A DNA stretch of 35,176 nt, from contig CP070770.1 of the NCBI GenBank assembly GCA_020345765.1, positions 2,241,023 to 2,276,198 on the forward strand, in the 5' to 3' direction. Below are positions 21,033 through 28,066 of this stretch, one piece after another. Below the pieces are notes generated by a model that was given only the letters and a program-made list of their open reading frames with translations, was not told the origin of the DNA and ran no database searches. Within the stretch, counting starts at the first letter, position 1; every line of letters starts with the position of its first letter. Made by a program: the position numbers and the translations under genes. The DNA comes from Deltaproteobacteria bacterium (GTDB lineage: Bacteria; Desulfobacterota; G020345765).

Positions 21033-21443
21033 TCAATCCCACACTAATGGCACCCCTCTCCAGTTATGCAACCTTTCATCCTTGGTCAACAGGGGGAATC
21101 CGAGTGCCAGAGCAGTCGCCGCAATAGCACGATCCGGCATGTCAGGCACTTGATCTCGGGGGATCTCGAATCCATGCCGAATTACCTGCTCATCTAATGC
21201 GGCTATCCGGTAGGAGCCATCCGGCCTTAATTGTTCAAGCAGTTGTTCAACCTGGCTTCTTGAAATTGGAGGGGTAGGTCGCTCGCTCAGATACACCATC
21301 TCAAAGAGGCTGATTGCCGGGATATGAACGATCACTTCCCCCCGGTCCGCCTTCTGTAAGGTCTTTTTAGCACCTTCCCCCAAAAGAGGATCTTGCGTTA
21401 GATGCCAGATCAGAGCATTGGTATCGGCTACAAACTGCTCCAT
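21033..21443 (-). CDS. PIN-domain toxin (VapC-like)
   Basis: 136 residues. The PIN nuclease acidic residues are visible: D7 in VADTNALIWHL, E48 in SLFEMVYL, D104 in MPDRAIAATAL and D122 in LLTKDERL. Such toxins cleave RNA, often tRNA or rRNA, when released from the antitoxin. It begins directly after the stop of the AbrB-type antitoxin gene. Its position at the end of the tsaB operon, facing it, suggests insertion as a module. Confidence 0.92.
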   Translation of the reverse strand: MEQFVADTNALIWHLTQDPLLGEGAKKTLQKADRGEVIVHIPAISLFEMVYLSERPTPPISRSQVEQLLEQLRPDGSYRIAALDEQVIRHGFEIPRDQVPDMPDRAIAATALALGFPLLTKDERLHNWRGVPLVWD

Positions 21444-21689
21444 TTACTTGCGGTAGGGGCGAAAGAACTCACTGCGCACCCGCATAATATCCTCCTCGGT
21501 TACCTTGGTCCCATTCCAGAGACCTCCGAGGGCAACAGGTTGAACCAGCGGGATCGGCTCCATAATCACCCGACCATTTTCAGCATGAACCTCTACTTCA
21601 CTATTGAGATTTATTCCTACCTCTCGAAGCAGGCTCAAAGGAAGGGTGATTCCTTGTGAATTGCCAATCTTTTGAATTTTTTTCTTCAT
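21444..21689 (-). CDS. AbrB/MazE-type antitoxin
   Basis: 81 residues. The N-terminal swapped-hairpin motif MKKKIQKIGNSQGITLPLSLLREVGI followed by NSEVEVHAENGRVIMEPI is standard for AbrB/SpoVT DNA-binding antitoxins. The C-terminal tail (VTEEDIMRVRSEFFRPYRK) should wrap the PIN toxin. Start and stop are adjacent to the promoter-operator and the toxin respectively. Conventional VapB partners of PIN toxins often have this fold. Confidence 0.92.
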   Translation of the reverse strand: MKKKIQKIGNSQGITLPLSLLREVGINLNSEVEVHAENGRVIMEPIPLVQPVALGGLWNGTKVTEEDIMRVRSEFFRPYRK

Positions 21690-21883: not shown

Positions 21884-22606
21884 TCATAAATTCAGGCCTT
21901 CGGGACTAAAGGCTTCGAAAACTGCGGTCCCGACAAAAAGAGCGACTAGGAGTATGATAAAAGCAACAAACAGAAAGAAGATAAATACCGGGAATAAGAT
22001 GGCGAAAACAGCTCTCCCGGTAGAGAAATCATGAACTTTCTTGAATCCAATGACCGTTAAAATCAGACCGTAGATTCCGCTTATCAGGCTGCCAACAAAT
22101 GGAATCGCCTGAAATACATTGGTTGATGCAGAGTAAGTCAACACGCGAAAGGTTGCTTCATAGCCCCCCCGACCACCCAGGATGAGAACACCCAGATGCA
22201 GAATTACCCCCATTATAAAATAATAGATCGAGATCCAGATCGGAGAAAAGAGTATTATTACGAGGGAAAGTATGAGAAAGCTGTCCGGACCACTCGGGAA
22301 AAAGAATGAGCCTTCTTCCAACATCGGCGCCTGGGTGATCATATTTGAAGGGAGACCTAAAATCAAACTGATAATCCCCAGAATGATGGCAAAACCCAGC
22401 GGGGTACCAATCCCACCGCTGATCGGCATTTGGGCAAAGAACTCCTGGGGAGAGAACATTACCTGGACCCAGGTTTGCCAGAGGGAGGAAAAAAATCCGA
22501 TATTTTTTCGGTCCTCCCAAGGGGTTCCTCCGGCCTTCTCGACGGTTTCGGCCGGGAGGAATACCGAAGAAAAAGGTTCCTGTGATTGTGAGTTTTCAGG
22601 GTCCAT
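21884..22606 (-). CDS. Yip1-family integral membrane protein
   Basis: 240 residues. A soluble N-terminal stretch (about 1-65) contains WQTWVQVMFSPQEFFAQMP, a conserved amphipathic lead-in of bacterial Yip1/YIP-like proteins. Five hydrophobic segments follow. The family pattern FRVLTYSASTNVFQAIPFVG, then IYGLILTVIGFKKVHDFSTGRA, is clear. The function of bacterial members is unknown. AAGGAAGG lies upstream of the ATG. It is followed at once by tRNA-Thr. Confidence 0.85.
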   Translation of the reverse strand: MDPENSQSQEPFSSVFLPAETVEKAGGTPWEDRKNIGFFSSLWQTWVQVMFSPQEFFAQMPISGGIGTPLGFAIILGIISLILGLPSNMITQAPMLEEGSFFFPSGPDSFLILSLVIILFSPIWISIYYFIMGVILHLGVLILGGRGGYEATFRVLTYSASTNVFQAIPFVGSLISGIYGLILTVIGFKKVHDFSTGRAVFAILFPVFIFFLFVAFIILLVALFVGTAVFEAFSPEGLNL

Positions 22607-22701: not shown

Positions 22702-22729
22702 TTGACAATATCTCCAGCTATGCTAAGAT
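22702..22729 (+). promoter_or_regulatory. Probable promoter of the HEAT/HD-GYP pair
   Basis: TTGACA (22702-22707) is followed after 16 bases by TAAGAT (22724-22729). A perfect TATAAT also occurs at 22750-22755 but has no good -35 box at the right distance. Either could serve the gene at 22785. Confidence 0.5.
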
Positions 22730-22784: not shown

Positions 22785-24380
22785 ATGCCTGAAGATGCGA
22801 AGAAAGCTTCACGTCCGGGCCCTTCCGATCCGAAGATAGCTAAGGGGCTGGAAAATTTCCTCCTGGAGCTAAGCAAAGCGATAAAAGCAGTAGAGTTCTA
22901 CCCGACTCAACATCCTGCCCTGATGACAGTAGTGAAAAGGGTTCATGAGTTATTCAAGATAGCCTCTGCTTCTGTCAGGGGAATAGACCTCTCCATCAGT
23001 CGCCAGGGATTTCAATGGAAACAGAAACCTCTTGCCGAGCGGAATCAGTCTCTTCAGTTTCTGGCCAACAGACTCTTCCTCCGCAGAGTGAGCCGGATAA
23101 AGTTTTCCGACAAAGCTAACCTGGATGAATTCAGGATCCTATTGGTAGCCCTGACCATCAGCCCGGAAGAACTTCTCGGTATGGGGGGGGTAGACAAATT
23201 CCTTCGTAACGGGAAAGTGCTTAACATCGAGATCAGCGAGATCCGCTATGAACTTGTCCGGGAGAAGGTAGATGCGGCTCAGCCGGGGATTGAGTTGAGT
23301 CAGTTGGAAGAGGAAGATCCGTCGAAAGCTCCTCTGGAATCGGGTAAGCAGCTCTTGAGCGACGAAGAGAAATTGTTAGAGCTGCTCGAGCAACTGGAGA
23401 ATGAGGAGGAAGATGACCGGTTCCTGGAGCTTTTAAAGAAAATTGTGGAGTTGGTAGGGAGTCTTACCGAGAGGGGTGAATTCAATGTTCACTGTCAAAT
23501 CTTTCGGGCCCTGATGAGACTGCATCGGGCAATGGGCTACTCCCCGGCACAGAAAAGATATTGTCTGGATGCCCTGCGCAATCTGGGGAACAGAAAAGCC
23601 CTGGATTTTATCTTGAGTTGTCTCGGCCCGGGCGACCCGGTCTTCCGCAACGAATTGCGCGAGAGTCTCCTTACGATCGGAGAGGCAGCGATTAACCCTC
23701 TGATCCTGAGGATTCTTGAAAACAAGGTTCCGGAGAATCAGCGCTACCTGATCGACCTGCTTCACCAGTTCGGGAAAACAGCGGCACCCAGACTGGAAGC
23801 GATGCTTGCTGATGAGAATCCTTCTGTAGTACGTAAGGTGTTATCTTTTCTCGGAGAGATCGGAGCGGAGAACTCGATTGCTCCTCTCGGGGAATTACTC
23901 TACCACAAAAATAGCGGTGTTATAAAAGAGGTGGTGAAGATCCTCTCCCGGCTCAGAAGCGAAGAAGCCCGGGACCATCTTTTCACTGCTCTGTCCCAGG
24001 CCGATCCGGAGATCAAGATCCATATTGCCTCTACCCTGGGAGATGTCAAGGAGAGTTCCGCCGTCCCGGTATTGATGAAATTGGTTAAGAGGAAGGGTAG
24101 GGACCCGCAAACCTTATCCCTGAAGAAAGAGGCCATCAATTCATTGGGTAAGATAGGTTCCCCGGAAGCTTCCCCACTTCTGGCCAGAGTGCTCAAGAGA
24201 AAGATCCCGTTTGTCCGTAGAAGGATGAATGAGCTGCAGGTTGCTGCTGCCCTCAATCTGGGAGAGATCGGCGGAGAAGAGGCCTTTGTCGCCCTGGAAA
24301 GAGGAACCCGTTTCAGGCACAAGGAGCTGAGGGATGCCTGTTGGCAAGGGATAGGCATTATAAATGACAGGTTCGTATAA
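22785..24380 (+). CDS. HEAT-repeat protein with N-terminal module shared with the adjacent HD-GYP protein
   Basis: 531 residues, no signal peptide or membrane helix. Residues about 27-158 form a helical/beta module with VEFYPTQHPAL near the start and GGVDKFLRNGKVLNIEISEI near the end. The same layout occurs in residues 8-140 of the downstream protein. An acidic linker (about 165-210) is followed by about eight HEAT-like repeats to the C-terminus, such as ALDFILSCLGPGDPVFRNEL and AIAPLGELLYHKNSGVIKEV-type helices. HEAT arrays usually act as protein scaffolds. The stop and the next start overlap as TAATG, so the proteins are made together. I infer a scaffold or regulator for the HD-GYP enzyme. 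Confidence 0.85.
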   Translation: MPEDAKKASRPGPSDPKIAKGLENFLLELSKAIKAVEFYPTQHPALMTVVKRVHELFKIASASVRGIDLSISRQGFQWKQKPLAERNQSLQFLANRLFLRRVSRIKFSDKANLDEFRILLVALTISPEELLGMGGVDKFLRNGKVLNIEISEIRYELVREKVDAAQPGIELSQLEEEDPSKAPLESGKQLLSDEEKLLELLEQLENEEEDDRFLELLKKIVELVGSLTERGEFNVHCQIFRALMRLHRAMGYSPAQKRYCLDALRNLGNRKALDFILSCLGPGDPVFRNELRESLLTIGEAAINPLILRILENKVPENQRYLIDLLHQFGKTAAPRLEAMLADENPSVVRKVLSFLGEIGAENSIAPLGELLYHKNSGVIKEVVKILSRLRSEEARDHLFTALSQADPEIKIHIASTLGDVKESSAVPVLMKLVKRKGRDPQTLSLKKEAINSLGKIGSPEASPLLARVLKRKIPFVRRRMNELQVAAALNLGEIGGEEAFVALERGTRFRHKELRDACWQGIGIINDRFV

Positions 24381-25741
24381 TGCAGAAACGCTTAGAGCAG
24401 GCGATCAAGTATCTTGCCGGAACCCTGAAGAGTCTTAATTATTACCCTCCCGGACACCCCACCATCATTCAACCTGTGGAGAAGTCTTTAGAGGTTTTAG
24501 AACCCATCTTGGCCAAAAGAGGTCAGCTTGTTTTGGCGGTTCTGGATAAAACACTGGTTATCGAGCAGCAGCCTTTCTACCAGGCCCATCCTGCTATTGA
24601 AGAGTTAGTCCGGAGAATGGAAGAAAGGGTTATTCAGGGGTTTACCTTCAAGCATGGGATTACCAGCCAGGAGCTGATCCAGCTATTCCAGCTGTTGCTG
24701 GAAGACCCCCAGAGCCTGGAGAAGAAGGGAGGGATAGAGGCTGAGCTTCGAGCCCGCAGGATACTTCATATCGCCGTGAAGAAGATAGCCCTGACCGAAG
24801 AGGAGGTTGAGCAGAAGGCTAAAAAGGTATATACCGATGCCCGGGGGGTGATTCTGGATATTATGAAGCAGTCGCGGATGGGAACGGTTCCCCGGGCAAA
24901 AGAGGCAATTGAGATAGTGAAGTCGATGAGCGAGATCATCCTTACTGATAAGAATGCCCTGCTCGGGCTTACCATGATCCAGGATTACGATGAGTATACC
25001 TTTAACCACTGTGTCAATGTAGGAATACTTTCTTTGGCCCTGGGAGATACAGTAGGGCTTAAAGGTAAAGGTTTAAATGATGTGGGATTAGCCGGGTTTC
25101 TCCACGATGTCGGAAAGACCTACGTTCCGAAGGACATTATCACCAAACCCGGAAAGCTTAACGGGCAGGAGTGGGAGACAATGAAAAAACATCCACTCTA
25201 TAGCTCGGAGATTATCTGTCAGATGGAGGGTATGAGTGAGGAGACCATAAATAGTGTCCTCTATCATCATACCCGATACGATCTGAAAGGCTACCCACCT
25301 TTGACGGACGGGGAAAAGCAATCTCCGGGGAGTCAGATTGTTGCCCTGGCTGATTGCTACGATTCGATGACTACCCTGCGTCCCTACCAGAAGCGCTTTG
25401 ATCCCAAAGAGACTTTGGAGATAATGACGAAGAGGGTGGGGACGCATTTTGACCCTACCTACTTCAAGGCATTTATCAAGACACTGGGATTCTACCCGAT
25501 CGGCACCCTGGTGCGTCTTGATACCAACGAGATCGCCTTGGTGGTCAGGATTAATCCTGGTGATCCCAACCGTCCGGTAGTTAAGATTATTTATGATGCC
25601 GAGGGAAGGGAGCTTAAGGAGCCCCGGGAGGTAAGTCTGGCCGGACGGGATGCTTCCACCCGTTCCTACCAACGATCAATCGTAACTACCGTGGATGCCG
25701 TAACCCAGGGGCTGATCGATATATCTCCTTACTTCCAGTAG
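24380..25741 (+). CDS. HD-GYP domain phosphodiesterase with N-terminal YPxxHP module
   Basis: 453 residues. The N-terminal module (8-140, LNYYPPGHPTI at 19-29) resembles that of the upstream HEAT protein. The HD-GYP domain spans about 195-380 with its metal ligands in place: H210 (TFNHCVNVG), H242-D243 (FLHDVGK), H271 (KKHPLYS), H296-H297 (LYHHTRYDLKGYP) and D325 (VALADCYDSM). The usual HHExxDGxGYP reads HHTRYDLKGYP here, so the glutamate after HH is replaced by threonine, which may affect metal number. HD-GYP enzymes hydrolyse cyclic di-GMP to GMP or pGpG, or cGAMP in some bacteria. A C-terminal beta domain (about 385-440) follows. No GGDEF partner lies in the window. It is cytoplasmic, with no membrane segment. 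Confidence 0.93.
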   Translation: MQKRLEQAIKYLAGTLKSLNYYPPGHPTIIQPVEKSLEVLEPILAKRGQLVLAVLDKTLVIEQQPFYQAHPAIEELVRRMEERVIQGFTFKHGITSQELIQLFQLLLEDPQSLEKKGGIEAELRARRILHIAVKKIALTEEEVEQKAKKVYTDARGVILDIMKQSRMGTVPRAKEAIEIVKSMSEIILTDKNALLGLTMIQDYDEYTFNHCVNVGILSLALGDTVGLKGKGLNDVGLAGFLHDVGKTYVPKDIITKPGKLNGQEWETMKKHPLYSSEIICQMEGMSEETINSVLYHHTRYDLKGYPPLTDGEKQSPGSQIVALADCYDSMTTLRPYQKRFDPKETLEIMTKRVGTHFDPTYFKAFIKTLGFYPIGTLVRLDTNEIALVVRINPGDPNRPVVKIIYDAEGRELKEPREVSLAGRDASTRSYQRSIVTTVDAVTQGLIDISPYFQ

Positions 25742-25744
25742 CAG

Positions 25745-26311
25745 CTATACCTCTAGATCTCCCAGGGCCAGGGCTGCTCGGCTGCGGATCCGGGGCTCCG
25801 GGTGGGAGAGCAGAACCATTAGGGGTTTTTCTGCCTTATTATCCCCGATCTTCCCTAAGGCTCCGATCACGCTTTCCAGGAGATCGATATTCTTTTCTTT
25901 AAGTTGGGGCATCAAGAAATCAGTCACTCTTTTATCGGGAAAATTCCCCAGGGCCTCCACTGTTAGGATGCGAATAGTCAGGTTATCGTCGTCCAGTTTT
26001 TCTATCAGATTGCTTAGCGTTCCCGAGTCAGCGATCTCCCCTAAGGCCCTAACTGCCGCCGAGCGCACTTCCACCTCGGAGTCATTAAGGGCAGAGACCA
26101 GGGGTGCCAGGGCACCCGGTTTCCCAATCTTTCCCAGGGCGTAGGTGGCCCTCACGCGGGCAGTTTTATCTCCCTTTTTCATTATCTGAATCAGTTTTTC
26201 GAGTCCGGGTTTTTTTTCTAAATTTCCCAGGGCCTCGGCCGCCGATTTACGGACCTGTTCGTTTTTATCTTTGAGCAGCTTGATCAGGGCATCCTTCCGC
26301 TTATCCTTCAA
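25745..26311 (-). CDS. Small HEAT-like (PBS lyase-type) repeat protein
   Basis: 188 residues from a TTG start at 26311, two bases after the stop of the upstream peptidase gene and preceded by AAAGGA. A longer frame would run into the peptidase and shows no repeat pattern, so it is rejected. The protein is built almost wholly from about six 31-residue HEAT-like units, each with the pattern VRxxAAxALGxIxD (for example EVRSAAVRALGEIADSGTLS). This type of repeat is used as a binding scaffold. It is probably translated together with the P1-type peptidase. It ends three bases from the convergent HD-GYP gene. Confidence 0.85.
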   Translation of the reverse strand: MKDKRKDALIKLLKDKNEQVRKSAAEALGNLEKKPGLEKLIQIMKKGDKTARVRATYALGKIGKPGALAPLVSALNDSEVEVRSAAVRALGEIADSGTLSNLIEKLDDDNLTIRILTVEALGNFPDKRVTDFLMPQLKEKNIDLLESVIGALGKIGDNKAEKPLMVLLSHPEPRIRSRAALALGDLEV

Positions 26312-27667: not shown

Positions 27668-28066
27668 TTATACGATCCCGGTGACTTTTTTCACAAAAAA
27701 AGCGGTAACTTCGTCCTTGGATGTAGTGCCTTCCACTACGCCGATGGTAAGATGCTCGAGCTCTTCGTTGGTGGCTGTCAGATGCATACCATTAATTAAC
27801 AAAAAGATTTCCGCCGCCGCTACCGCGGTCCGCTTGTTTCCGTCAACAAAGGGGTGGTTTTTGCAGATATGGAACAGGTAGGATGCGGCCATCGCGGGAA
27901 CTCCGCAGTGAAGGAATTCACCGCCGTAACGGGCGGCGGGCATGGTCACGGCAGACTCAAGCAGTCCGTAATCCCGTACTTCCGGAGCACCGCCGAACTC
28001 ATCTATCATGCGCCGGTGGATGGCAAGCACATGATCTACGGTCAAAAAAATGGGAAAGTCGCTCAT
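27668..28066 (-). CDS. Doc-family (death-on-curing) toxin
   Basis: 132 residues. The Fic/Doc core HPFVDGNKRTA is at 71-81, with the lysine in place of the glycine of AMP-transferring Fic proteins. This is the form found in Doc, which phosphorylates elongation factor Tu. FLTVDHVLAIHRRMIDEFGG at the start is typical of Doc. The start overlaps the end of the antitoxin gene by four bases. Confidence 0.94.
   Translation of the reverse strand: MSDFPIFLTVDHVLAIHRRMIDEFGGAPEVRDYGLLESAVTMPAARYGGEFLHCGVPAMAASYLFHICKNHPFVDGNKRTAVAAAEIFLLINGMHLTATNEELEHLTIGVVEGTTSKDEVTAFFVKKVTGIV

Follow-up and report, generated by a model that had tools for sequence, protein, structure and literature searches.

Two overlapping genes for a HEAT-repeat and an HD-GYP protein

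The window, which is the whole stretch of 35,176 nucleotides that we analysed, contains two adjacent genes on the forward strand. Gene 1 (22785–24380, +) encodes a protein of 531 amino acids with an N-terminal module, an acidic linker and HEAT repeats. Gene 2 (24380–25741, +) encodes a protein of 453 amino acids in which an N-terminal module is followed by a helical linker, an HD-GYP domain and a C-terminal beta region. The stop codon of gene 1 and the start codon of gene 2 have one base in common within the sequence 5′-TAATG-3′ (24378–24382, +), an overlap that the first-pass annotation had already reported and that we could read directly from the sequence. Upstream of gene 1, a promoter-like site was found at 22702–22729 (+; TTGACA-16-TAAGAT with a TG before the −10), which is a consensus match only. 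The gene divergent from the pair (21884–22606, −) encodes a Yip1-domain membrane protein according to Pfam. By eye only, 21033–21443 and 21444–21689 (both −) appear to encode a PIN-domain toxin and AbrB-type antitoxin pair, and 27668–28066 (−) a Doc/Fic-like protein with the motif HPFVDGNKR, likely a toxin-antitoxin gene.

In the gene 1 product, five stretches matched the Pfam family HEAT_2 (E=2.7e-37, above the curated cut-off), and matches to HEAT_2 and HEAT_PBS place the HEAT-repeat solenoid at approximately 23562–24359 (+). An orthologue is present in the sister genome. A phycobilin-lyase identity was rejected, as the NCBIfam scores were 14–46 with cut-offs of 200–600. A third gene (25745–26311, −; start inferred from relatives) follows immediately downstream, in convergent orientation to the HD-GYP gene, and encodes a small HEAT-repeat protein of about 188 amino acids (HEAT_2, E=2.2e-34, Pfam). 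Downstream sequence of 1.5 kb or more was available for 44 loci, and 24 of these carry a convergent orthologue of this gene at most 600 bases from the pair, often overlapping the HD-GYP stop codon by a few bases, and orthologues were also found at four more divergent loci. The small HEAT protein may be a third component of the system; alternatively, a regulatory role may fall to the convergent overlap. The earlier description of a compact signalling pair stands as far as the pair goes, but 'compact' has to be widened, since many of the loci include a third HEAT gene in convergent orientation.

The HD-GYP domain (24974–25459, +; residues 199–360) was delimited by Pfam (HD_5, E=7.6e-23, above the curated cut-off), by an alignment of 29 sequences and by alignment to 4mcw and 5z7c. 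Its set of metal ligands, H...HD...H...HH...D, which two-metal HD-GYP enzymes have in common, is complete (H210, H242-D243, H271, H296-H297 and D325) and invariant in the 29 aligned orthologues. The GYP motif lies at residues 304–306 (HHTRYDLKGYP) and is kept in nearly all members of the group. Where PmGH has the third-metal ligand Glu185, the protein has Tyr206, a tyrosine that is invariant at that column in the 29 sequences aligned to 4mcw and 5z7c, and the usual HHE motif reads HHx in this group. Trinuclear HD-GYPs use a glutamate equivalent to PmGH Glu185, and most HD-GYPs are dinuclear (PMC8177086). Because this glutamate is replaced by an invariant tyrosine, a two-metal site is expected. 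The C-terminal beta region (25493–25738, +), with the signature YPIGTLVRL.TNEI.LV, is conserved in the 29-sequence alignment and present in the AlphaFold2 model of the full-length protein (pLDDT 78.7), in which confidence is low past residue 415; a short HD-GYP variant of about 370–410 amino acids (e.g. at L127) does not contain it. The whole genome gave 8 GGDEF and 6 HD_5 matches, and cyclic di-GMP signalling is therefore present in this organism. An rpoB tree, with low support and several poorly selected reading frames, suggests no more than that the genome comes from a deltaproteobacterial-type lineage.

Taken together, the HD-GYP protein is probably an active phosphodiesterase for cyclic di-GMP or 3′,3′-cGAMP. 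Alternatively, it could have little or no activity on cyclic dinucleotides and function chiefly as a structural or binding partner, a role that has been suggested for the unconventional Bd1817; the exchange of the glutamate for tyrosine and the change from HHE to HHx would fit such a role. However, Bd1817 has lost the last Asp and the Tyr of GYP (PMC8177086), whereas the full ligand set and GYP are kept in nearly all members here, and the expected two-metal type is the commonest among HD-GYPs (PMC8177086). We therefore regard an inactive enzyme as improbable.

A common N-terminal module that matches no Pfam family

The module of the HEAT protein covers 22836–23243 (+; residues 18–153), as defined by BLASTP, hhalign and HMM matches, and that of the HD-GYP protein covers 24380–24787 (+; residues 1–136), as defined by BLASTP and the profile-profile match. 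Limits of 27–158 and 8–140 had been proposed before; they located the modules correctly, but their exact ends were shifted by between a few and about 10 residues. In BLASTP, the two segments aligned without gaps at 23% identity (E=1e-10). The local alignment of the two N-termini scored 117, whereas 2000 shuffles averaged 32 with an sd of 5 and reached 64 at most (z=16). Moreover, in a six-frame search of the whole genome with the HD-GYP protein as query, its HEAT neighbour was the sole non-HD match (E 4e-6). These results argue for homology and against chance similarity. Profile-profile comparison with hhalign, which the first-pass annotation had proposed as a check, was significant as well: the HEAT-side and HD-side profiles matched over 132 columns with 99.7% probability (E=3.4e-26). 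In both module types, the Y, P and H of a YPxxHP motif are invariant or nearly so. Judged from these comparisons, it is close to certain that the N-terminal modules of the two proteins are homologous and that chance is ruled out, which bears out the earlier observation, made by eye, that both proteins begin with one and the same module.

Neither Pfam nor NCBIfam matched anything in the N-terminal ~140 residues of the two proteins of the window; the NCBIfam check also took in the HD-side set. When 51 module sequences were compared to Pfam, no family was matched by more than one sequence (best E 0.002), and no Pfam profile match supported a GAF, PAS or receiver identity. A profile search of solved structures returned only a 44-residue stretch of Octarellin and one match at E 0.54; the former, Octarellin V.1, was set aside since it is an artificial protein. 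A phage origin was rejected, as the module had no match among the PHROGs phage families. A reading of the locus as a defence system was also rejected, because the PADLOC models gave only generic HEAT and HD superfamily matches.

AlphaFold2 predicted the HD-side module (24380–24814) as a compact alpha/beta domain (pLDDT 90.9, pTM 0.83), with a secondary structure identical to that in the full-length HD-GYP model. Foldseek comparison of this model to the PDB gave nothing at E<0.001; the weak top matches were GAF domains, with PelD first (best E 0.04, TM ~0.2 to at most about 0.3), a resemblance that we retain as no more than a weak lead. By Pfam, NCBIfam, PHROGs, PADLOC and the literature searched, the module is an undescribed domain of about 130 residues. 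In that literature, limited to non-subscription papers, we found no description of the pair when looking for HEAT repeats together with HD-GYP or in combination with PilZ and GGDEF.

Conserved pairing and other module architectures

An HD-side module search found the module in 75 of the 297 genomes of the phylum that were searched, and a profile built from both module types detected it in 156 of the 395 genomes sampled, representing 104 of 246 genera. At least two copies are held by most of the 156 genomes (about 130, by count of the table). The pairing counts rest on about 100 retrieved loci. At all 83 loci where both module types are present, the module-HD-GYP gene follows the module-HEAT gene on the same strand; these loci were chosen for holding the module, and some genomes contribute more than one, so that they are not 83 independent species. 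Across them, the HD module starts a median of 25 bases past the HEAT stop codon. Two more pairs (L274 and L288), in which the search pattern missed the HD motif, stand outside this count. One genome (G008) harbours three paralogous HEAT/HD-GYP pairs (L259, L260 and L261).

When genome contigs were searched with the single HD-GYP protein sequence, no relatives were recovered. With the HD-GYP alignment as query, most of the matches listed were ordinary HD-GYPs without the module, but among the matches listed the pair was also found on contigs of a Deltaproteobacteria MAG (L114), a Desulfuromonadaceae MAG (L127), an Elusimicrobia MAG (L117) and a Nitriliruptoraceae MAG (L116; HEAT_2 score under the curated cut-off). 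All five genomes searched with L117 carry at least two modules. On a Planctomycetota contig (L152), an HD-side module is preceded by an overlapping ORF that is only marginally module-like. Pairing of the two genes is thus close to certainly conserved beyond this locus, with the same order and strand and in several phyla, as expected for the dedicated pair that had been proposed. The partners are not absolutely obligate, because each module type occurs alone in some loci: the HEAT module has no module-HD-GYP neighbour at six loci (L072, L102, L103, L104, L105 and L293), where long module-HEAT proteins stand alone, and module-HD-GYP genes without a HEAT neighbour occur at L296 and L297.

In a tree of 194 modules, in which the placement of a few long branches is poor, the HEAT and HD labels change 5 times, compared to about 64 times at random, and the starred branches force only 1 change. 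Because the HEAT-type and HD-type modules are nearly separate on the tree, the simplest reading would be one ancient duplication, after which both paralogues were co-inherited as a pair.

Furthermore, a search for the module beside other HD-GYP, HEAT and GGDEF domains, another check proposed at the outset, recovered GGDEF and PilZ fusions in addition to the HD-GYP pairs. In GGDEF-AAA_16-module-module-HEAT proteins of about 1430 amino acids, two modules stand in tandem, and these modules do not contain the HP of YPxxHP. Such giant proteins were seen at L110:7896-12176, L110:3050-7393, L107 and L108, and in genome G134 two of them are encoded side by side. They may be the counterpart of the HD-GYP pair on the cyclase side. 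The module is also combined with HEAT repeats, a cNMP-binding domain and PilZ in single large proteins (L275:1223-4597 and L289:4014-8999), and it precedes PAS-HisKA-HATPase in an Elusimicrobia-group genome (L298:3326-5233). The gene for this last protein adjoins one for a small protein that looks PilZ-like by eye. The outputs that recur with the module thus include the synthesis (GGDEF), breakdown (HD-GYP) and sensing (PilZ) of cyclic di-GMP. Of the idea that the module is peculiar to the HEAT/HD-GYP pair, the pairing holds and the exclusivity does not: its presence in GGDEF, PilZ, cNMP-binding and histidine-kinase proteins marks it as a general signalling module.

Proposed function and comparison with known systems

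We favour, with moderate confidence, that the HEAT and HD-GYP genes form a co-translated and co-inherited signalling unit, in which the modules join a HEAT regulator to a probable cyclic-dinucleotide phosphodiesterase. Each protein would start with one copy of the same ~130-residue alpha/beta domain, and this domain would most likely serve to keep the two proteins attached to each other through (hetero)association of their modules. It is plausible that the modules dimerise the two proteins in the manner of dimerising input domains. The invariant YP..HP loop would perhaps read a cue common to both. The HEAT solenoid, as a scaffold or a regulatory arm, would either place the HD-GYP enzyme or control how it hydrolyses cyclic di-GMP (or 3′,3′-cGAMP) at a particular target. 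The physical complex, the direction of regulation, the substrate and catalysis are all points that we infer. The tandem modules inside single GGDEF proteins would be consistent with module-module contact, but they also count against it, because the HP of YPxxHP is absent there.

The main alternative is that the module is a ligand- or signal-sensing input domain, similar to cytoplasmic GAF or PAS domains, through which the two proteins answer one cue with no need for contact. This would agree with its location at the N-terminus, the usual position of sensors, also ahead of PAS-HisKA-HATPase in L298, with the nearly invariant YPxxHP loop, and with weak fold matches that are mostly to GAF domains, PelD first. 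However, these fold matches were non-significant (best E 0.04, TM no higher than about 0.3), and a common cue alone leaves the fixed order and adjacency in 83 of 83 loci unexplained. We consider this alternative possible but rather unlikely. Gene linkage could also stem from joint regulation without contact. That linkage carries no mechanism at all, with an old duplicated pair kept by translational coupling and functionally unrelated module copies, is very improbable: it would account for the TAATG overlap here and the short spacers elsewhere, but the pair is conserved over several phyla, a genome can hold as many as three paralogous pairs (G008), and the paralogous module types stay distinct; a linkage due to chance would have been broken.

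HD-GYPs are numerous, and how most of them are switched and localised is unknown; a conserved partner with a paralogous domain makes their regulation accessible to direct tests, in deltaproteobacterial-type lineages as well as in other poorly studied phyla. In addition, many 'hypothetical HEAT proteins' could be assigned to second-messenger signalling through a domain that Pfam does not contain and that repeatedly accompanies GGDEF, HD-GYP, PilZ and histidine-kinase outputs. More tentatively, and with slightly less than even confidence, we propose that cyclic-dinucleotide circuits have a widespread, undescribed signalling domain of their own in the YPxxHP module, which would link HD-GYP phosphodiesterases, GGDEF-AAA cyclases, PilZ receptors and HEAT scaffolds, and that the HEAT/HD-GYP pair and the convergent small HEAT gene form a distinct regulatory complex.

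With the PBS-lyase-type HEAT proteins (NblB, CpcE/F), the gene 1 product has the HEAT_PBS repeats in common, but it carries an extra N-terminal module. GAF domains, such as those of PelD, phytochromes and NifA, occupy a similar place in signalling proteins and were the top, non-significant, Foldseek matches, whereas the module has no significant structural or sequence match to them. The HD-GYP domain matched the fold of PmGH (4mcw), V-cGAP3 (5z7c), PA4781 (4r8z) and DvhD (9rbz) with a probability of 1.00 and keeps the ligands and GYP; in contrast to these proteins, its N-terminal module is not a GAF, PAS or receiver domain by Pfam, and a HEAT partner gene is fixed beside it. RpfG-type HD-GYPs of Xanthomonas have GGDEF and PilZ partners, and the enzyme is regulated through its protein partners. 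In the system described here there is no receiver domain, and the partner is instead a HEAT protein with a common N-terminal module.
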